Origin: Giesbergeria sp.
GTDB taxonomy: Bacteria; Pseudomonadota; Gammaproteobacteria; Burkholderiales; Burkholderiaceae_C
Assembly: GCA_017985015.1 (NCBI GenBank)
Contig: JAGNYI010000019.1
Span: 1 to 56,516 of the forward strand
Direction of reading: 5' to 3'
DNA: 56,516 nt
The translations under genes were made by a program, and so were the position numbers. The notes beneath the pieces were generated by a model. It was not told the origin of the DNA. It saw only the letters and a list, made by a program, of their open reading frames with translations, and did not search any database. Positions 21,035-46,458 of this stretch are shown piece by piece. Position 1 is the stretch's first letter; each line of letters starts with the position of its first letter.

Positions 21035-24000
21035 ATGAGCGCCTCCACCGCCTGTTCACTTCCGGCACCGATTGCGACGGAGCAGGACGCCATGGTGGAC
21101 GAGACTTTGAGGGCGCTGGCACCCGATGCGCTGCATGAGGTACGCATGCATGCCGTGCTGGCCAAGATTCAACAGCAGCTCTCTTCGCCCGCGCTCAGCG
21201 AACAAGAACTGCTGCAGTGCGCCATTCAGGCGGCACTCGATGCCACGAATGGCGAAGCATCCCGTTTCGAACTACTCGAAGGCGGTGGACTGCGCTGCGC
21301 CGCTGCTGCAGGCAGCCTCGTGGCCACCGCCGGCCAATGGATAGCCTTGGCAGACAGCCCCTCTTGGGCAGGGCTGGTGGCGGGGCAATCGCTGCGTTGC
21401 AACGACACGCAGCAGGCCGGCTGGCCGCAGGCACCGGGCCAAGCTGAGCGGCCCATGCGCTCGGCGCTGGAGGTGCCACTGCGGCGCGATGGAGCGATAG
21501 TAGGCGCAATCAAAGTGTGGTCCAGCGCACCAGAGGCGTTTACCGAACGCGACCTGGCACACCTGGAAATGCTCAGTGAATCCGTCAGCGCACTGCTCAC
21601 ACTGCGCCACGTGGCAGCCCAGCTGCGACGTTCGCAGAAACAGTATGAAGACTTGTTCCAGACGCACCCGCAGCCGATTTGGGTGTTTGCACTGGACGAG
21701 CGCCTGACGTTGCTGGCCGCTAACGAAGCCATGGTCGAGGTGTACGGCTATAGCCACGAAGAATTGCTGGGTATGGGCCTGCCCGACCTCTGGCCACCCG
21801 GTGAACACGAGCTTCATTGGCAGGCCCTGAAGAACGTGCAGGGCGGCAAAAGCGTCAACCGCCTTCTTTTGCAACATCGGCGCAAGGATGGGCGCCTGAT
21901 TGACGTCGAAATTGCCTCTCGCACCATCGACTTCAATGGCATGGCCGCGCGCCAGTCCATGGCCATTGACGTCACCGATCGATTGGAAGCCGAGCGCGAA
22001 ATCACCCGCATGGCGCGGGCACGTCATCTACTGAGCGCCTGCAACGAAGCCATCGTACGCGCCGAGTCTGAAGCCGAGTTGTTGGAGGCGATCTGCCGCA
22101 TCACGGTGGAACTGGGCGGCTACCCCATGACCTGGGTCGGCCTGGCACGCGACGACGCGCGCAAATCGATTGACTGTGTGGCCAGTGCCGGTGCCCACCC
22201 TGACTATATTGAGAGCTTGTCGCTGTCGTGGGACGAAGAGAACCCGCTCGGCCAGGGTCCGGCAGCACAGGTGATACGCAGCGGAAACACCATCATCGTA
22301 CGCAACGTGCAGGAAGCCGCGTCTCACGCCGGCCTTGCCGATCGGCTGCACCCACGGGGTTTTCACGGACTGGTGTGCCTGCCGCTCAAACACGCCGAGC
22401 AAACCTTCGGCGTGCTGTACCTGTACGCCTCCGAAGTGCTGCAAATCAGCCCACATGAGAGCGAGTTGCTAGGTGAGCTGGCCAAGGACCTGGCCTTTGG
22501 CATGCAGAGCTTTCGTGCGCGCCAGGAGCAGCAACGCATGCAGACGTCGGTGCTCAAAGTGGCCGCTTCGGTGTCGGCGGCGACAGGAACGGCTTTCTTT
22601 GTGCACCTGGTGCGCAACATGGCCGAAGCCCTGGGAGCCGAATCGGCCTGCCTGGGGCGATTTATTCCCAGCGCCCATGGCGCACCCGAGCGCCTGGTCA
22701 CCTTGGCACTTGTAGTCAATGGGGAATTGGCACCCAACGCCGAATACCTGCTCAGCGGAACCCCCAGCGAGCATTTGGCAACCGAGTACCAGTTTTGCGT
22801 GACACACGGCCTCAGGACGCAGTTTCCGCAGTCGGTGGTGGTGGACCAGACGGCAGCAGAGGCCTACGTTGGCCAGCAACTGTGCGACAGCGCCGGCACG
22901 GTCACCGGCATGCTGTTCGTGCTGTTTCGCCAGCCGCTGCAAAACCCGGGCTTTGCACAATCGACGCTGCAAATTTTTGCCTCGCGCGCATCAGCCGAAA
23001 TTGAGCGTCTGGCCGCCGACGCGCACATACGGCGCCAGGCGTCTCTGCTCGACCAGGCGCGTGACGCCATCATCGTGCGCAACCTGGCCCACCGCATCAC
23101 CTTCTGGAACCAGGGAGCCGAGCGCCTTTATGGGTGGACGCAGCAGCAGGCCATGGGCCAACCGGTCGATGCCTTGCTGCACCTGGACCGCAGCCAGTTC
23201 GAGCGCGCGACACGGGCGGTGCTCGCCCAAGGCGAATGGTCGGGTGAATTGGTGCAGCGCCACCGCGACGGCCACACCCTGGACACCGAGGGACGCTGGA
23301 CGCTGGTCAGCGGCGAGGAAGGCGAGGCGAGCAGCATCCTCGCCATCAATTCCGACATCCATGAGCGCAAGGCGACCGAGCGCGAAATTCAGCGCCTGGC
23401 GTTCTACGACGCCCTGACCGGTCTCCCGAACCGCATGCTGCTTTTGGACCGCGCCGGCCACGCGCTGGCCAATGCGGCGCGGGCCGGCGAAGGTGGTGCA
23501 TTGCTGTTCATTGATCTGGACAACTTCAAAACCTTGAACGACACCCTGGGCCACGACAAGGGCGACCTGCTGCTGCAGCAAGTCGCGCGCCGCCTGGAAA
23601 CCTGTGTGCGCAGCAGCGACACGGTGGCGCGCCTGGGTGGCGATGAATTTGTAGTCATGCTCGAAGCCCTCAGTAGTGAGCCCGCCACTCTGGCGCTTGA
23701 GACGCGGGCCGTAGCAGAAAAAGTGCTCTCCACGCTCGCTCAGCCCTACAAGCTCGACGGCCACCACTACCGCACCACGCCCAGCATCGGCATTGCCCCC
23801 TTTGGCGAGGGAACCACCACGGTCGGCGACCTACTGAAACAGGCAGACCTGGCGATGTACCAGGCCAAAACCGGCGGGCGCAATACGCTGCGCTTTTACG
23901 ACCCGCACATGCAGGCCGTGGTCAGCGCCCGCGCCGAACTCGAAACCGACATGCGCGCTGCACTGGCCAAAGGCGAATTTCTACTGCACTACCAGCCCCA

Positions 24001-24739
24001 GGTGCGCCACGATGGCCGCTGGCTGGGTGTGGAGGCGCTCGCCCGCTGGCAGCACCCACAGCGCGGCTTGGTGTCGCCGGCAGAGTTCATTCCGGTGGCC
24101 GAGGAGACCGGACTCATCCGGACGCTGGGGCGCTGGGTGTTGCATACCGCCTGCCAGGTGCTGGCCCACTGGCAGGAAGATCCGGCGCTGCACCACCTGA
24201 GCATGGCGGTGAACGTCAGCTCGCGGCAGTTTCGCAGCACGAGTTTTGTCGGCGACGTCTCGCGCATGCTCGCCATCACCGGAGCGCCAGCACGGCGCCT
24301 GAAACTCGAACTGACCGAAAGCGTGCTGGTGGACAACGTCGAATCGACCATTGCCACCATGGAGTCGCTGCGCGCCATGGGAGTGCGTTTCTCGCTGGAC
24401 GACTTTGGCACTGGGTATTCGAGCCTGAGCTACTTGAAGCGCATGCCCCTGCACCAGCTCAAGATTGACCAGAGCTTCGTGCGCGACCTGCTGACCGACC
24501 CCAACGACGCAGCCATCGTCGACACCATCGTCGCGCTCAGCGCGGCGCTGGGGCTGGACGTCATTGCCGAAGGGGTGGAGACCCTGGAACAGCGCGAAAT
24601 GCTGCTCCAGGCCGGCTGTATGGCCTTCCAGGGCTATCTTTACAGCCGCCCGCTCGACGACGCAGCCTTGCTGGAGATGCTGCACAGCTCCGGCTCACCG
24701 TACGTCCCGTCACTCCCGTCGCTCCCGTCGCTCCCGTAA
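21035..24739 (+). CDS. GAF/PAS-sensing GGDEF-EAL cyclic-di-GMP protein
   Basis: A 1234-residue soluble signalling protein without obvious membrane helices. Order by rough residue: GAF 45-195, PAS 205-325, GAF 335-500, GAF 515-665, PAS 672-785, GGDEF 790-955, EAL 970-1220. The GGDEF motif (868-872, RLGGDEFV) is intact, and so is EAL (1000-1002, VEALARWQHP) with the later DDFGTGYSS and KIDQSFV blocks. It could therefore both make and break c-di-GMP; which activity prevails is not readable. The C-terminus ends in a short tandem repeat (SLPSLPSLP) encoded by 9-base units. The gene ends where the origin-like region begins. Confidence 0.93.
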   Translation: MSASTACSLPAPIATEQDAMVDETLRALAPDALHEVRMHAVLAKIQQQLSSPALSEQELLQCAIQAALDATNGEASRFELLEGGGLRCAAAAGSLVATAGQWIALADSPSWAGLVAGQSLRCNDTQQAGWPQAPGQAERPMRSALEVPLRRDGAIVGAIKVWSSAPEAFTERDLAHLEMLSESVSALLTLRHVAAQLRRSQKQYEDLFQTHPQPIWVFALDERLTLLAANEAMVEVYGYSHEELLGMGLPDLWPPGEHELHWQALKNVQGGKSVNRLLLQHRRKDGRLIDVEIASRTIDFNGMAARQSMAIDVTDRLEAEREITRMARARHLLSACNEAIVRAESEAELLEAICRITVELGGYPMTWVGLARDDARKSIDCVASAGAHPDYIESLSLSWDEENPLGQGPAAQVIRSGNTIIVRNVQEAASHAGLADRLHPRGFHGLVCLPLKHAEQTFGVLYLYASEVLQISPHESELLGELAKDLAFGMQSFRARQEQQRMQTSVLKVAASVSAATGTAFFVHLVRNMAEALGAESACLGRFIPSAHGAPERLVTLALVVNGELAPNAEYLLSGTPSEHLATEYQFCVTHGLRTQFPQSVVVDQTAAEAYVGQQLCDSAGTVTGMLFVLFRQPLQNPGFAQSTLQIFASRASAEIERLAADAHIRRQASLLDQARDAIIVRNLAHRITFWNQGAERLYGWTQQQAMGQPVDALLHLDRSQFERATRAVLAQGEWSGELVQRHRDGHTLDTEGRWTLVSGEEGEASSILAINSDIHERKATEREIQRLAFYDALTGLPNRMLLLDRAGHALANAARAGEGGALLFIDLDNFKTLNDTLGHDKGDLLLQQVARRLETCVRSSDTVARLGGDEFVVMLEALSSEPATLALETRAVAEKVLSTLAQPYKLDGHHYRTTPSIGIAPFGEGTTTVGDLLKQADLAMYQAKTGGRNTLRFYDPHMQAVVSARAELETDMRAALAKGEFLLHYQPQVRHDGRWLGVEALARWQHPQRGLVSPAEFIPVAEETGLIRTLGRWVLHTACQVLAHWQEDPALHHLSMAVNVSSRQFRSTSFVGDVSRMLAITGAPARRLKLELTESVLVDNVESTIATMESLRAMGVRFSLDDFGTGYSSLSYLKRMPLHQLKIDQSFVRDLLTDPNDAAIVDTIVALSAALGLDVIAEGVETLEQREMLLQAGCMAFQGYLYSRPLDDAALLEMLHSSGSPYVPSLPSLPSLP

Positions 24740-24790
24740 GTCCGATCAGTTCGGTCCGCTGCGCGCTGGCCTGCGGGTCCCCGGCGCTGT

Positions 24791-25012
24791 CTCTTTCTAT
24801 TTCTTCTATTTCATTGGTAGATAGTAGATAGAGGCGCGCCGTTTCTGTGGACAAGTGTGCTTTTGGTTTGCAGATCAAGCACTTGTCTGTGCGCCAGCGC
24901 TGTGGACGGACCTCGCAGCAGCCCAAGCTGCATTGGGGACAGTTTCCCGGTTTTCATAAAAACTGTGGATAACCCAGTCTTCGCGAGCTTGATGCCCACA
25001 GTGTTATCCACT
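24791..25012 (+). repeat. Origin-like module, copy A
   Basis: Pyrimidine/AT tract 24791-24817, TAG triplets at 24818, 24822, 24825 and 24829, 14-base spacer containing GGCGCGCC, then boxes at 24846 (TGTGGACAA), 24901 (weak), 24964 (perfect TGTGGATAA) and 25004 (TTATCCACT, inverted). Confidence 0.75.
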
Positions 25013-25177
25013 CCTTGGGCGCCCTCCCTTGGATCTGAGGCACAGTTTTGCTGCGCCCTGCGCCGTTTCAAGGACCGGGAATCAAAGCCTTTCCGTACGG
25101 TCGCGTGCCGGTCTGCCCACAGCCCAATGCGAACCGCCTGACAGGCAGGGAACGGGGAAAGGAGCAGAGGCGCTATC

Positions 25178-25399
25178 TGTTCTTCTACTTCTCTCTATTC
25201 AATTAGTAGTAGTAGTAGGGGTTGGCCGATTCTGTGGACAAGACCAGAATCGGCTTTCAAATCAGTCGCTTGCGGCTCTTGCAGCACTGTGGGCCAGGCC
25301 CTGTTGCTGCAGTCTCGAAAACTGGACAACTTTGAGAAATGGTCATCGGGTGTGGATAAGTGCTGGAATGCGTGCACTTTTTCCCCAGGCTTGTCCACA
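25178..25399 (+). repeat. Origin-like module, copy B
   Basis: Pyrimidine/AT tract 25178-25203, five consecutive TAG triplets 25204-25218, 14-base spacer containing GGTTGGCC, then boxes at 25233 (TGTGGACAA), 25288 (weak), 25351 (perfect TGTGGATAA) and 25391 (TTGTCCACA, inverted). It ends 17 bases before the stop codon of pagL. Confidence 0.75.
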
Positions 25400-25416
25400 G
25401 GTGGTGCCTGGAAGCG

Positions 25417-26019
25417 TCAAAAGTGCAGCGCGTAGCGCAGTTGCACAAAGTTCGCCCCGGGGTTGGGTTCCTTGATGCCGGCATTCGAGACATGTTCCAG
25501 CCGCAGCTGCAGCTCATGCTGGCGCTGCTGGCCCAGTTCGACGCCGACGCCCAGGTGGCTGGCAAAATTGAAACGGGTGCTGAATTCTTGCGCTGGCGAG
25601 ACGAAACGGCGGTTGGCGAGCGTGGCGCCCACACCGGCGTCCAGAAACCAGCGCGAATGTCCGGCGTCGGGAATGAAGCGAAAGCTCGGTGTGACGCCAA
25701 GCACCGTGGTGTCAAAGTCGGCGCCTACGCCGCGCGCCGACCAGCGGCTGGCGTAGAAGTCCCAGTAGCCCCGCACCTCGGCGCCCCACAGGCTGCGGCG
25801 CCAGTCTTGCCAATCCAGGGTGGCACCCAGCGTCCAGGCACTGATGTCGTGGGGAGTCCTGGCGGTTTGCAGGTACATGCCCCAACGTGGGCCGGCTTGG
25901 GCATCGGCCGGCTGTGCGGCCGGTTGTGCGCTCGCTTGCGCGCAAACCAGGAGGGGGACGAGGGCGAAGAAGGCGCAACGAGTCCGCGCCGACCCAGGGT
26001 TTTTTGAAGTGCTTGGCAT
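25417..26019 (-). CDS. pagL: PagL-type lipid A 3-O-deacylase (acyloxyacyl hydrolase)
   Basis: A 200-residue outer-membrane beta-barrel protein. The N-terminus is a signal peptide (CAFFALVPLLVCAQASAQ). The C-terminal LRLEHVSNAGIKEPNPG holds the catalytic His-x-Ser pair of PagL, and the protein ends in an aromatic residue (RYALHF) as outer-membrane barrels do. PagL removes the 3-O acyl chain of lipid A, altering its recognition and permeability. ATG 26019 is chosen to give a proper signal peptide; AAGG lies upstream. The gene is convergent with the GGDEF-EAL gene across the origin-like region. Confidence 0.88.
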   Translation of the reverse strand: MPSTSKNPGSARTRCAFFALVPLLVCAQASAQPAAQPADAQAGPRWGMYLQTARTPHDISAWTLGATLDWQDWRRSLWGAEVRGYWDFYASRWSARGVGADFDTTVLGVTPSFRFIPDAGHSRWFLDAGVGATLANRRFVSPAQEFSTRFNFASHLGVGVELGQQRQHELQLRLEHVSNAGIKEPNPGANFVQLRYALHF

Positions 26020-26199
26020 GACGAAACCTTGATTCCTGATTCCGCCATCAGGCAGGTGCCCTGCTGCGGTGTGGAGTGAGCCACCCCAGGGCAAGAACCC
26101 TGGGATGTCGCCTGAGGCTACTGCTGCGCCAATGCGCTATCTGTAGGCCAGAAACGAATTGTCACGCCATCACACGCGGGTGCACCAGCGTCTGCGCGA

Positions 26200-41137: not shown

Positions 41138-42784
41138 TCAAACATTGCTAAAGGGGCTGTTGGTGGCTATAAACCAGCGCGCCCATCGGCGTTCACCTCT
41201 CAGCACCAACTTGCCCTCGGTCCGCAATTCCCGTAACAAATCTTGGACGGCACTTTCCGGCAGTGTGGGAAGCACCTGCCGCAGCTCAGCCAGGGGGGCG
41301 CCCTGAGGACTTTGTTGGGTCAAATGGGTGACCAGAAGCGCTTTGTTGGTGTTGCGATCCAACCCACGTTGGCGGGTGTAGGTGCCCTTGGCCCCTAAGG
41401 TTGCGTACAGGGCTTCGGACAGTATGTAGCGCACACCCTTACCGCGCCCAATGGCTTCCACGGCTCCTGCCGCAATCAGGCTGGGAACCCGCTCCAGCAA
41501 CTCGGCGCTGAGTGCCTTGCCCTGCTCCAGCCGCTCCAGTGCGAGATAGTCCAGCGTGGAAAAGCTCCGCAGCGTGTCTTCCCCCAACCGCTCCATGAAC
41601 CGGACAAACGCCGGGTTGCGCACGCCGCCCTCCAGCGTCAGGCGCACCTCGTGCGCGGCGGTGCCTGCAAAGCTGGGCAGGGGCTTGCCCTGGCGCACGG
41701 CGCTTTCCATCATCAGGTTCAGGCCCTGGCCAGATCGCTCAATCAGCCCGCAGCGCCCTAGCGCCTCGGCCAGGCGGCGGTTGCGCGGGTATTGCTGGTC
41801 AATGATGTTCTCGGGCGTGATGCCGGGCGGCAGGCCGCCGGGGCTTACCACCTCCAGCCGCTTGGCAAACTGCCGCACAAAGATGGAGCCGCCCAGGCGG
41901 TAGTCGCGGTGGGCCACTGCGTTCAGGATGGCCTCGCGCACGGGCACTTCGTCAAAAGTAGGCAGGTCCATGCGAAAGAAATCGTCCTGGTAACTCTGCC
42001 GGTCGTTGCGCAGGTTGATCTTTTTCCACAGCGCGTCTTGCCAGGCGAAGAAGCCCGCGCGGTATTCCTCGCGGTCGGCCGCCGGGCCAGCGGCTTCGGA
42101 CGAGCGGTACTCAAACACCAGCTCGGCTTGCGCCAGCCATCGCGTGAGACCCGCACGTGTGCCAAACAGGATGAGCGCCGCGTAGCTCACCTGATCGCCC
42201 TCCACCAGCAGTTCGGCATCGCGCAGCGTTTGCAGGTCGCATAGCTCGCGCCTGCGCGGGTCACCGCTTCTGCGCGCCCAGCGTTCGCGGAACAGGACGA
42301 TGGATTCGGGCTCCAGGTCGGCCAGCGTGGCACCGGGGCAGGGCTGGGCAGAAAAGTCGGGGCCTGTCTCGGCAAACATCTCCCTCAACTCCTGGCCGCT
42401 CAAAGCTGCCAGGTCGTCACCTGCGCGCTTGAAGTAGCGGCCATCAATCTCCCACGCCGTGCCCGGCAAGCGTGGCGGAACGTGAACGATCACCACGCGC
42501 CCTTCAGGCAGCAACAGCTCTTCCACAGGAATGCGATGCCCCAGCCGCTGGTGCAGGCCCGCCTCGGTGCGGCCCGGGTCTTCAAACGCCTGGGTGCCCA
42601 CAATGCGCCGGGGCCGCTTGTCCGTCACGCCCAGCACCATGGTGCCGCCGCCCTCGTTGGCCAGGGCCACGCAGTACTTGAGCAGCTTTTCAAAGTCGTA
42701 CCGTTGCTTGGCCTCTTTGAACTCCAGGCGCTGGCCTTCGGGTTCAAGCAGCCATTGGTGAAGCTGGGCGACGGAAGTGGGCAT
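41138..42784 (-). CDS. AlbA_2/HATPase domain putative DNA-binding ATPase
   Basis: A 548-residue protein of the Schlafen AlbA_2 group. Residues about 12-135 form the AlbA_2 domain (EFKEAKQRYDFEKLLKYCVALANEGGG, ending FKRAGDDLAAL). Residues about 270-400 form a GHKL/HATPase_c_4 domain with the N-box in REAILNAVAHRDYR and G motifs SPGGLPPGITPENII and GQGLNLMM. A C-terminal winged-helix part follows. Such genes are often carried in type I R-M loci and other defence islands, but their role there is not settled. It stands between orf278 and hsdR in the same direction, 84 and 133 bases away. Confidence 0.85.
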   Translation of the reverse strand: MPTSVAQLHQWLLEPEGQRLEFKEAKQRYDFEKLLKYCVALANEGGGTMVLGVTDKRPRRIVGTQAFEDPGRTEAGLHQRLGHRIPVEELLLPEGRVVIVHVPPRLPGTAWEIDGRYFKRAGDDLAALSGQELREMFAETGPDFSAQPCPGATLADLEPESIVLFRERWARRSGDPRRRELCDLQTLRDAELLVEGDQVSYAALILFGTRAGLTRWLAQAELVFEYRSSEAAGPAADREEYRAGFFAWQDALWKKINLRNDRQSYQDDFFRMDLPTFDEVPVREAILNAVAHRDYRLGGSIFVRQFAKRLEVVSPGGLPPGITPENIIDQQYPRNRRLAEALGRCGLIERSGQGLNLMMESAVRQGKPLPSFAGTAAHEVRLTLEGGVRNPAFVRFMERLGEDTLRSFSTLDYLALERLEQGKALSAELLERVPSLIAAGAVEAIGRGKGVRYILSEALYATLGAKGTYTRQRGLDRNTNKALLVTHLTQQSPQGAPLAELRQVLPTLPESAVQDLLRELRTEGKLVLRGERRWARWFIATNSPFSNV

Positions 42785-42868
42785 GGCGGCGAAGAAGCTT
42801 TGAGAGATTGATGCGAATAGCGCCGCCTCTAACGCAGCGGCCCCTGGTGCGAGACCAATAGCATGGTT

Positions 42869-43705
42869 TTAAACGTGAGCTGCGCCATACAAGTTTTCAT
42901 AATTTAATCCGTCAGTCAAATATGGGGAAAAACCGGCGAGGAGAATTGAAATTGCCATAACGTCTCGTAATTCCAATTCTCGTAACTTGTTTGCTGCTGT
43001 TCCTCCATGTCTAATTCCTGGATAGTCACACGCGAAACCATACAATTGTTTAATTGCATCTTTGACCTGGAAGTGTGGCCAAGTATTGGCTTGACCGCAA
43101 ATGGCCCCTAAAGTGTTTCCGCTTACAGTAGGTAGTTTTCCGCCCAATCCCTCTAGCAGATTTATTTGCTTTTGAATGCATGTTTTTATGTGATTTGTAG
43201 AGCTGTCAGTTCGGATTGCTCGAACTGAAGACTCAAAATCATCCATTAAAGATGACAAATGGGCATCAGTATTTGTGTGGTTGCGTAATTCTCGAATTAA
43301 ATTAGAGAAAATCCCTGGCAACGTGGGACAGAGTATGCACGGCGAACGTAATTCGTAGCGAAGGCTAAATTTTTGAATCACCTCCCCCAATCGTACAAAA
43401 TATGTACTTCCGAGATCCTCCGCAACTAAATCGTCCAAAGCTTCTAATATCTGCTCGAGTGCAAAGACTAATGCACGCTCGCTGGCGAAACTATCTGAAG
43501 TTAGCCCGTAGAAAGCATCACGAGCGTCGACAGGATCATCCAATATGTTGGCTAAATCCTCCGGGGAAAGATTTGTCTTGAAGGCGACCGACACCGCTCG
43601 GAATAGCTCGCAAAACAAGTCGTCTGGAGCGGTCTCTATCTGAGCCAATGGATCCCACAATTCGGTTTTTAGCTCGGGCCAGATGCTTATAAATTCGCCA
43701 TGCAT
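42869..43705 (-). CDS. Unknown protein in R-M operon, possible Abi/HEPN type
   Basis: A 278-residue protein I cannot assign with certainty. It is predicted helical and soluble. The C-terminal part DYPGIRHGGTAANKLRELELRD then VMAISILLAGFSPYL (residues 227-262) resembles the C-terminal region of AbiJ-like and other abortive-infection proteins, where an R-H pair belongs to a HEPN-type RNase; R138-x4-H143 (RELRNH) is another candidate HEPN motif. Its ATG follows the hsdS stop without a gap. Base composition is clearly AT-richer than hsdM or hsdR on either side, as is the distal part of hsdS, which points to separate acquisition. Confidence 0.75.
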   Translation of the reverse strand: MHGEFISIWPELKTELWDPLAQIETAPDDLFCELFRAVSVAFKTNLSPEDLANILDDPVDARDAFYGLTSDSFASERALVFALEQILEALDDLVAEDLGSTYFVRLGEVIQKFSLRYELRSPCILCPTLPGIFSNLIRELRNHTNTDAHLSSLMDDFESSVRAIRTDSSTNHIKTCIQKQINLLEGLGGKLPTVSGNTLGAICGQANTWPHFQVKDAIKQLYGFACDYPGIRHGGTAANKLRELELRDVMAISILLAGFSPYLTDGLNYENLYGAAHV

Positions 43706-44842
43706 TCAAACCTCCCCTGCGAATGCTTTACTTTGCAGAGCTAAAAAAAGCTCATTTAAGTCGATCATCGCCGCAGTATTTATTTTCTTTAGATGGATTA
43801 TTTGTGCTAATCGGGTCGAAAACTTTTTCTGTAATTCTATTGGGGGGGTTGGAATTTCAATTTGCTCAAAAGAAGATTTCTTGAGAATAGGCAGCGTTGT
43901 AGAAGCACCCCAAGCTTTAATCGTCGGTTTGAAGAATCGCATCACCTCAAATCCGAAATGATCAATAATTTCGTTGCCCCACACAATCGCATTAAGTTGC
44001 TGATTGAATGCAGACGCCTTTAGAGCTATGCCAACTTTGCCGATGGTCGCACCGATGCAGCAAACCAAAGTGGAGCCTGCGCGTACAACATCAACTTCCT
44101 GCGCGCCGGCTTCCGTAATACTTCGACGGACTGGTTCATCACTTTCCAGATCGCCTGGGGTAATGAAAGGTATCGGGCCATCAAACATGCCCTCTTTTGA
44201 GCTAGGGGGCGTTCCACCCGTAATCACCTTACCCAAATCCTTCAACTTTTTTACAGGCCAATTTTTAGGATTAGTAGCGGGGTCCCCGAACAAATCCAGA
44301 AAGAGGGACTGGGTCAGGCGGTCCAGCAGGGCCAGGGCGGTGCGGCGTTGGGTTCGGAGGGTTTCGGCCTGGTCGAGGATGGCGGCGATGCGGCGTTGTT
44401 CTTCCAGCGGGGGGACGGGAATATTTAGCTCGGAAAATCGCGATTTGTTGACTATCGGTACGGTCGTGGCTGGAGCCATTGATTCAAGTTGAGGCTTCAG
44501 AAGCCTACAAGCAAAGAAACCGTAGCGAGGATCAATTTTGTTGCCATCAAAGACGATGGCATTGATTTGTTGATTGGTGACGAGGGGCCTGCCCGCGAAA
44601 CCAATTTTCCCCAGCGACCCAATGCAGCAGACGAGCACTGAGCCCGCAGGCAATAACGTGCCGGTTTTTGCGCCCTCGTCTGTGAGTGACCTTGTGGCAG
44701 TGTGGATTGGAGTTATTTCGCCGAGGTCGCCTGGCGTGACAAAAGGGATGTCTCCACCAAAAAGGGACTCATCGTTTGTTTTCGGAGTCGATCCTGTGTG
44801 AATCGTCCCAAGGTCTTGGAGCATCTGTGTTGGAAAGCTCAC
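43706..44842 (-). CDS. hsdS: Type I restriction-modification specificity subunit S
   Basis: A 378-residue HsdS that sets the DNA target of both methylation and cleavage. Two target-recognition domains (about residues 8-140 and 198-345) are joined by a conserved helical spacer (EEQRRIAAILDQAETLRTQR). The two TRDs resemble each other: IPFVTPGDL with IPFITPGDL, LVCCIGSLGKIG with LVCCIGATIGKVG, and NQQINAIV with NQQLNAIV. Its start overlaps the hsdM stop (ATGA). Low GC outside the spacer fits TRD exchange by recombination. Confidence 0.93.
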   Translation of the reverse strand: MSFPTQMLQDLGTIHTGSTPKTNDESLFGGDIPFVTPGDLGEITPIHTATRSLTDEGAKTGTLLPAGSVLVCCIGSLGKIGFAGRPLVTNQQINAIVFDGNKIDPRYGFFACRLLKPQLESMAPATTVPIVNKSRFSELNIPVPPLEEQRRIAAILDQAETLRTQRRTALALLDRLTQSLFLDLFGDPATNPKNWPVKKLKDLGKVITGGTPPSSKEGMFDGPIPFITPGDLESDEPVRRSITEAGAQEVDVVRAGSTLVCCIGATIGKVGIALKASAFNQQLNAIVWGNEIIDHFGFEVMRFFKPTIKAWGASTTLPILKKSSFEQIEIPTPPIELQKKFSTRLAQIIHLKKINTAAMIDLNELFLALQSKAFAGEV

Positions 44843-46458
44843 TTCAACATCCCCTCTAACACCCCCATCCCCCGCGTAATCTCGTCTTCCAGCGCCCGCA
44901 GCTCCGCCAGGATCTCCCCCGGCGCCCGGTGCTGCACCTGTTCATGCACGACTTCCTTGTACCGGTTGATGCTCAGGTCATACCCGTTGGCCTCGATGTC
45001 GGCCTTGGACACGCAGAAGCTCTGGGCGGTGCGGGGGCGGTCGTGTTCGGTGCCGTTCCTCTGGCCCCAGCGCTCCAGCACGTCGGGCAGGTTGTTCTTG
45101 GCGTGCTCTGCTTCTGATAGCTGGTTGCGCTTATCCACAAAGCGCTGCAGGCCTAAAAGGCTTGCATCCAGCAGGGGCTGGCGTTTGTCGTCCAGGCTCC
45201 AGCCGTCGGCCTGCATGTCGTAGAACCACACGTGGTCGGTGCCGCCGCTCATGGTTATGGTGAAGAGCAGGATGGCGGTGCTGACGCCCGCGTAGGGCTT
45301 GAACACGCCGCCGGGCAGGCTGATGACGGCGTCGAGTTTTTGCTCTTCCACGAGCTTGCGGCGCAGCTCCTTGTGGGCCTTGCTGCTGCCGAACAGCACG
45401 CCGTCGGGCACGATGACGGCGGCGCGCCCGCCGGTTTTCAAGAGGCGCAGGAACAGGGCGAGGAAGAGCAGTTCGGTCTTTTTGGTTTTGACGATGGCCT
45501 GCAAATCCTTGGCGGTGTTCTCGTGGTCGAGGCTGCCGGCAAAGGGCGGGTTGGCCAGGATGAGGCTGTAGGCACCGGCGTCGCCCGCCGCGCCTTGCGA
45601 GAGCGAATCGCGGTACGCAATGGCCGGGCGCTCGACGCCGTGCAGCAGCATGTTCATGCTGCCAATGCGCAGCATGGTGTTGTCGAAGTCGTAGCCGTGG
45701 AACATGCCGTGGTGGAAGTGCGCGTTCTGCGCCGGCACGCGCAGCATGTCGGGGTAGGTGCTGCGCAGGTATTCGCCAGCGGCCACGAGGAAGCCGCAGG
45801 TGCCACTGGCCGGGTCGCAAATGGTGTCTTGCGGCGTGGGGGCGGTCAGGGCCACCATCAGTTCAATGATGTGGCGCGGCGTGCGAAATTGCCCGTTTTG
45901 CCCGGCGGCGGCAATTTTGCCGAGCATGTATTCGTACAGGTCGCCCTTGGTGTCGCGCTCATCCATGGGGATGGCGTCGAGCAGGTCCACCACGCGGGCC
46001 AGCAGCGCGGGCGTGGGGATGGTGAAGCGGGCGCCCTGCATGTGGTGGGCAAAGGCGGTGCCGGCGGCTTCGCCACCGGCCGCCTGCAGGCTGCGCAGGA
46101 AGGGAAACACATGCTCGCTGAGCACGGTGAACATCTCGCCCGGCGCCATGTTCTTGAAGCGCGACCAGCGCAGGTCGTCAAACGGGCGGCCTTTGGGGTC
46201 CAGGCCTTCGGGGTAGAGGCGCAGCGGCTGGGTCTTGAGGCGCAGGGCTTTGTGGTCTTCGCGCGTTTGGTCGCTGTCGAGGCCGCGCAGGAAAAGCAGG
46301 TAGGTGATCTGCTCAATGACTTCGAGCGGGTTGGCAATACCGCCCGACCAGAAGGCGTTCCAGACCTGGTCGACTTTGTTCTTGAGTTCGCCGGTAAGCA
46401 TGGGCAGGGGAAGTGCAACGCTGCACTGGGCAGGTGGTGAAGCCTGCGAGTCTGCCAT
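44839..46458 (-). CDS. hsdM: Type I restriction-modification DNA methyltransferase subunit M
   Basis: A 539-residue N6-adenine methyltransferase. The SAM-binding motif I is DPASGTCGF (215-223) and the catalytic motif IV is NPPF (303-306). The N-terminal domain (LKNKVDQVWNAFW onward) and C-terminal INRYKEVV match the family. Residues about 434-450 (LLGLQRFVDKRNQLSEA) are encoded by a copy of the intergenic repeat of this genome (45111-45157) in frame, at a spot where relatives have a variable loop before EHAKNNLPDVLERW. First gene of the R-M operon. Confidence 0.94.
   Translation of the reverse strand: MADSQASPPAQCSVALPLPMLTGELKNKVDQVWNAFWSGGIANPLEVIEQITYLLFLRGLDSDQTREDHKALRLKTQPLRLYPEGLDPKGRPFDDLRWSRFKNMAPGEMFTVLSEHVFPFLRSLQAAGGEAAGTAFAHHMQGARFTIPTPALLARVVDLLDAIPMDERDTKGDLYEYMLGKIAAAGQNGQFRTPRHIIELMVALTAPTPQDTICDPASGTCGFLVAAGEYLRSTYPDMLRVPAQNAHFHHGMFHGYDFDNTMLRIGSMNMLLHGVERPAIAYRDSLSQGAAGDAGAYSLILANPPFAGSLDHENTAKDLQAIVKTKKTELLFLALFLRLLKTGGRAAVIVPDGVLFGSSKAHKELRRKLVEEQKLDAVISLPGGVFKPYAGVSTAILLFTITMSGGTDHVWFYDMQADGWSLDDKRQPLLDASLLGLQRFVDKRNQLSEAEHAKNNLPDVLERWGQRNGTEHDRPRTAQSFCVSKADIEANGYDLSINRYKEVVHEQVQHRAPGEILAELRALEDEITRGMGVLEGMLK
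45111..45157. repeat. Palindromic repeat copy inside hsdM coding sequence
   Basis: TGATAGCTGGTTGCGCTTAT..CAAAGCGCTGCAGGCCTAAAAG matches the intergenic family (GATAGCT, GCGCTTATCCA, AAAGCGCT) but is read through in frame as part of HsdM. Confidence 0.65.

Follow-up and report, generated by a model that had tools for sequence, protein, structure and literature searches.

The window, by which we mean the whole 56,516-nucleotide stretch of Giesbergeria sp. DNA that was analysed, is contig C21 of a draft genome of 110 contigs and 3.37 Mb. Between two converging genes lie two modules of ~213 nt in the same orientation and 387 bp apart, each with the same order of elements: a pyrimidine/AT tract, TAG triplets, a 14-nt spacer, a DnaA box (box1), an IHF-like site, and further boxes at +55, +118 and, inverted, +158. 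The gene to the left encodes a PAS/GAF/GGDEF/EAL protein and that to the right a PagL-like protein 78% identical to one from Simplicispira hankyongi NY-02, the sole relative found in that scan, on which basis we placed the organism in or near Simplicispira; because both genes converge on the site, it is unlikely to serve as their promoter. The features are as follows, with the IHF-like sites scored against the IHF consensus WATCAANNNNTTR:

21035 to 24739, plus strand: left neighbour, PAS/GAF/GGDEF/EAL protein gene, pointing at the site (open reading frame and protein family scan)
24791 to 24831, plus strand: M1 pyrimidine tract followed by out-of-register TAG triplets (24818-24831, reading TAG-A-TAG-TAG-A-TAG; does not pass the strict trio rule discussed below)
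24800 to 25012, plus strand: module 1 (M1), upstream copy (layout; 98.5 bits with profile R1, whose training alignment included this copy)
24832 to 24845, plus strand: M1 GC-rich 14-nt spacer from trio tract to box1 (sequence)
24846 to 24854, plus strand: M1 box1, TGTGGACAA (word search)
24873 to 24885, plus strand: M1 IHF-like site at +27 (consensus WATCAANNNNTTR and alignment offset count)
24901 to 24909, plus strand: M1 weak box at +55, TGTGGACGG (sequence)
24964 to 24972, plus strand: M1 perfect box at +118, TGTGGATAA (word search)
25004 to 25012, minus strand: M1 inverted box at +158, TTATCCACT, one mismatch (word search)
25180 to 25218, plus strand: M2 pyrimidine tract and five in-register TAG triplets (25204-25218), a likely unwinding element with DnaA-trios (6 NAN triplets, spacer 14)
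25187 to 25401, plus strand: module 2 (M2), downstream copy (layout; 127.6 bits with profile R1 at 25189-25401, this copy also being in the training alignment)
25219 to 25232, plus strand: M2 GC-rich 14-nt spacer from trios to box1 (sequence)
25233 to 25241, plus strand: M2 box1, TGTGGACAA (word search)
25260 to 25272, plus strand: M2 IHF-like site at +27 (same basis as in M1)
25288 to 25296, plus strand: M2 weak box at +55, TGTGGGCCA (sequence)
25351 to 25359, plus strand: M2 perfect box at +118, TGTGGATAA (word search)
25391 to 25399, minus strand: M2 inverted box at +158, TTGTCCACA, which is TGTGGACAA on the minus strand (word search)
25417 to 26094, minus strand: right neighbour, PagL-like protein gene, pointing at the site (open reading frame and protein family scan)

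The initial annotation, made from the letters alone, had described two copies of the tract, TAG, spacer and box layout with an exact 387-bp offset and widely diverged sequence between the boxes. Every box position was as it had given, the offset holds for all four box pairs in the window, and the two copies share just 46% ungapped identity over 213 nt, with box1 and the +118 box identical at 9/9 positions. The 56.5-kb window contains the motif TGTGGAYAA six times, with five of these at the modules, and six occurrences were reached in 0 of 100 shuffles, so that the cluster of DnaA boxes at the modules exceeds chance by this test. Over both strands of the whole draft genome there are 35 occurrences, against 11 for a backwards control, and among the 35 listed there are, away from the modules, never more than two close together. 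An Rfam scan of positions 24700-25500 returned nothing at gathering scores, and a search of the whole window with the parS consensus, allowing up to three mismatches, returned no parS-like site, which counts against an origin here.

The modules are kept well beyond this genome. By DNA search, 12 of 40 genomes gave a match, the window's own among them; all 12 are in the genus, and in G003 and G013 the match lies away from the modules. For 18 genomes of the genus we aligned a total of 33 modules (alignment A1, without the two modules of G004 and a third one in G001) and built profile R1 from them, so that its matches to those 18 genomes are by construction. The invariant columns fall mainly in the trios, box1 and the +118 box, and in part in the +55 and +88 boxes, the core of the IHF-like site and the inverted box. 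R1 matched 25 of the genus's 26 genomes, with two or three modules in 17 and one in eight, the single miss being a genome that is 67% complete (G011); around the single modules of G015, G018 and G021 it found no decayed second module at E values up to 10. In the family it matched 237 of 250 genomes, representing 135 of 141 genera, three of the 250 genomes belonging to this genus, with at least two matches in 78 of the 250. In the order it matched 38 of 150 genomes, four of these 38 in this family and the remainder scoring more weakly. The initial annotation had named absence from close relatives as evidence against an origin; what was found is the opposite. Outside the family, R1 matches can also stand in tandem, with three in G327 (C1:1853645-1855241) and two in G030 (C1:5138119-5138719).

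The geometry within the modules is conserved. In a set of 96 modules (best-scoring loci for the other genera rather than a random draw, and including the two of G004), 92 have a box with at most one mismatch at +117 to +119, and 58 have an inverted box, again with at most one mismatch, at +146-148 or +158-160. The IHF-like site at +27 has two mismatches or fewer in 23 of the 33 aligned modules and one or fewer in 15, the next best offset giving 11 and 0, respectively. The distance from box1 to box1, by contrast, is 370 to 499 bp in relatives, or 4.2-4.5 kb in G022, G003 and G023. The conserved box geometry noted initially holds for the interior of the module and not for the 387-bp register; both modules persist in relatives, the register does not, and selection on the period itself was dropped as an explanation, 387 bp being particular to this genome.

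Each copy also appears to have been kept in its own right. In four groups of related species, chosen after the module tree had been made and comprising 12 genomes out of the 18 in the alignment, the mean identity of the 32-nt trio/AT tract is 0.81-0.98 in M1 and 0.72-0.94 in M2, compared with 0.64-0.81 for whole modules and 0.41-0.49 for the filler between them, whereas M1 and M2 of one genome are 0.47-0.63 identical (12 genomes). Between species, no part of M1 is better kept than the trio tract, positions 24800-24831 being 97% identical to G012 and 100% to G007. Within species groups of the module tree, M1 clusters with M1 and M2 with M2, and the pair therefore predates those species and its copies have not been homogenised. 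Both copies look separately conserved.

The initial annotation had remarked on the absence of dnaA, dnaN and gyrB from the site, and all three are indeed elsewhere, on the separate contig C13 of the same draft genome (dnaN and gyrB as read from translations), in the order mnmE-yidC-rnpA-rpmH-dnaA-dnaN-gyrB from reading of the open reading frames. Upstream of this dnaA there are one perfect and one near DnaA box, the dnaA-dnaN spacer is 73 bp, and R1 found no module in the 19.8 kb around the gene at E values up to 10. Adjacency to dnaA and dnaN, which is usual for an oriC without being required of one, is thus absent at this site. To place the module in other genomes, we used 40 near-complete genomes of the family, hand-picked for their low contig number (to keep to 40, a few genomes in the range of 3 to 8 contigs were omitted), all 40 of which R1 matches. 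With one weak match (G044:3895201, E 7e-4) excluded from this table, in 14 genomes a module on the opposite strand sits ahead of dnaN, 12-109 bp beyond the dnaA match; in one (G162) a module ends ~240 bp before dnaA; and in 25 the nearest module is 16-460 kb from dnaA. Two or three modules are present in 18 of the 40 (two of those 14, G162, and 15 of those 25), separated by 0.27 to 46 kb. The duplication had initially been considered an oddity, and this no longer stands, as doubled modules are widespread in the family. On a DnaA tree that is weakly resolved (good support for 11 of 38 inner branches, bootstrap unsettled) and that classes G162 as displaced through a wrap-around slip, at least two changes on branches with good support are required to account for the displaced multi-copy state. 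The older place of the module in the family is likely to have been between dnaA and dnaN, and we infer that it was originally beside dnaA and moved later. Some individual arrangements can be mentioned here. In L157 (G214), two modules 309 bp apart lie within an 811-bp dnaA-dnaN spacer, a tandem pair at the old place, and in L133 (G173) one module is beside dnaA and a second 24.6 kb off, which is perhaps an intermediate of the move. The third module of G001 (L030/L104), at C5:154912-155115 (115.7 bits), is ~38 kb from a tandem pair, from which dnaA separates it, and points the other way.

The cumulative GC skew of the window has its minimum at 25,000, on the modules; a minimum elsewhere had been named at the outset as evidence against an origin. 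In ten regions centred near modules by choice, two pairs of which (G045/G265 and G187/G059) each come from one genus, the minimum is on or within 3 kb of a module in six (the window, G004, G045, G265, G187 and G059), for which a rough binomial with odds set by hand gives 2e-4. It is away from the modules in the other four: G012, where the switch is broad, G044, G202 and G022, where it is ~7 kb from dnaA. In G004, a single contig, sampling gave a skew that is mainly negative between 1.0 and 3.1 Mb and mainly positive onwards from 3.14 Mb, round to 0.8 Mb; module 1 and the local minimum are 334 bp apart, and dnaA is ~53 kb away.

Given the skew minimum on the modules, their persistence in genus and family, and the presence of the same module beside dnaA in other genera, the site is very probably the chromosomal oriC of this bacterium, made up of two origin modules in tandem and displaced from dnaA. 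That the true oriC had moved away from dnaA was among the initial proposals, and it is the one that the skew, the kept modules with their inner geometry and the dnaA-adjacent counterparts support. Sites of the datA type, which titrate DnaA, are box clusters without an opening element, and a titration or regulatory site that is not an origin would fit the box cluster, the IHF-like site and the distance from dnaA. We regard it as unlikely, as trio tracts are conserved in both modules, the skew minimum of the window is on the site, the same module adjoins dnaA in 14 of 40 genomes, and no R1 module was found in the 19.8 kb around the dnaA of this genome. A plasmid origin, or that of an integrated element, is less likely still, and nothing beyond the distance from dnaA was found in its favour: all seven nearby proteins that were scanned match chromosomal-type families and none a rep or mobile kind, a distant blastn search against 72,556 plasmid records gave zero matches for the site, the site stays beside the PagL-like gene over much of the genus, and the pattern extends across the family. 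The low overall identity of the copies, 46%, could be taken to mean that their likeness is due to chance or to a recent neutral duplication, but this is scarcely credible given the shuffle test, the separate grouping of M1 and M2 within species groups, and the fact that both outlast the filler.

How the two modules share the work at a displaced oriC is a closer question. By the published trio rule, at least three NAN triplets no more than 16 nt from a box with up to two mismatches (PMC8287927), M2 passes with six triplets and M1 fails with one, and the initial reading of TAG run, spacer and box as the basal unwinding layout accordingly holds by this rule for M2 and not for M1, where the triplets are interrupted. 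M1 fails in five of 12 genomes (this one, G007, G012, G006 and G009), while M2 passes in 15 of 15, as do all six modules of G022, G003 and G023. It is quite possible, without being what we expect, that M2 alone is the origin and that M1 is a decaying or specialised DnaA-binding copy, serving as a loading aid or for titration; the lower R1 score of M1 here, the position of the skew switch in G187 and G059 closer to one of the two modules, and the sufficiency of one module in eight of 26 genomes of the genus are consistent with this. On the other hand, the trio tract of M1 is its best-kept part, far above the filler, M1 is in register in seven of the 12 genomes, and the rule is failed by 24 of the 96 modules, including sole dnaA-adjacent modules such as L156 and L160, so that failing it does not imply a loss of function. 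The published rule may be too strict for this family. That each module is instead a complete, independently firing origin, giving two origins side by side, is slightly less likely. It would agree with the occurrence of modules singly in other genomes, with the range of copy spacing (0.27 to 46 kb among the 40 genomes), and with G045 and G265, where the modules are 9 kb apart and the skew between them is approximately flat (0.1 and -1.8 per kb), compared with slopes of -18.5 and -19.3 on their left side and 23.6 and 15.8 on their right, which favours use of both modules. In G187 and G059, however, the skew between modules is -25.3 and -21.3 per kb, which favours use of one, and skew cannot resolve modules 387 bp apart.

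For the displaced tandem oriC, the BUS model, in which a box guides DnaA onto adjacent trios and the DNA is opened there (PMC8287927), provides a plausible route to initiation, and the predicted layout of M2 is a full fit to it. DnaA would bind box1, and a bend by IHF at +27 together with the boxes at +55, +118 and +158 would then allow a DnaA oligomer to form, guided across the 14-nt spacer onto the TAG trios. Engagement of the trios would open the pyrimidine/AT tract and permit helicase loading. M2, with its trios in register, is likely the main opening point, and M1 likely acts as a further opening or DnaA-loading unit within one shared start site; that M1 takes part is suggested by its interrupted trio tract, which stays near-unchanged between species. 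We would extend this to the family with considerable hesitation: many of its chromosomes might carry two or three complete oriC modules 0.27-46 kb apart, more than one of them initiating, in which case the single-origin rule would fail there.

The arrangement resembles several known systems in part. The oriC of Escherichia coli consists of an opening element, a box, an IHF site, more boxes and an inverted last box, tens of kb from dnaA; the element order and the distance from dnaA are the same here, whereas E. coli has a single module with other spacing and opening repeats. In bipartite origins, two box clusters flank dnaA and only one has the opening element. The site described here likewise has two DnaA-box clusters in one origin region but differs from the bipartite origins of Bacillus subtilis and Helicobacter pylori in having trio tracts in both modules and in that dnaA is not between them; both of those origins are named as bipartite in PMC4403523. 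The same paper mentions putative double origins in DoriC, for instance on chromosome 1 of Ralstonia pickettii 12D, which are alike in having more than one predicted origin-like region per chromosome, one of them in a betaproteobacterium. As described there, these are single-genome predictions from box counts and Z-curves, unlike the one defined module found family-wide here, with both copies kept over species groups. A potential BUS was reported in 1755 of 2070 predicted origins by the authors' own program, with a spacer that peaks at 10-13 nt and has a limit of 16 nt (PMC8287927). The box, the 14-nt spacer and the repeated TAG (3'-GAT-5') of M2 agree with a BUS; the differences are the two modules per site, the interruption of the M1 triplets by single bases, and the inclusion of fixed extra boxes and an IHF-like site. 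The exact origin of Burkholderia cenocepacia chromosome 1 is called unclear by the authors of PMC4948915.

Titles and abstract openings of the open-licence PMC literature gave no account of a family-wide module, its displacement or long-kept copies; DoriC may list single origins. The individual parts are already known, and what we did not find described, and consider new on that basis, is a fixed module over most of a family, located off dnaA in 25 of 40 genomes, with lasting tandem or dispersed copies. Two conserved start modules would allow a direct test of the rule that a bacterial chromosome has one origin, and the multi-module state in 18 of the 40 genomes offers natural strains with single, tandem and dispersed origins for comparison. 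Placing the origin at dnaA would mislead for 25 of these genomes, with consequences for analyses of skew, strand and copy number. The trio tract of M1, interrupted yet near-unchanged, is in addition a natural test of how strictly the trio register is required. Elsewhere in the window, positions 41138-46458 form a patch of lower GC content, down to 0.49 in 2-kb steps, in which the open reading frames resemble, by reading, HsdM and HsdS of a type I restriction system together with proteins of 548 and 278 amino acids, and which contains a perfect DnaA box at 45131.
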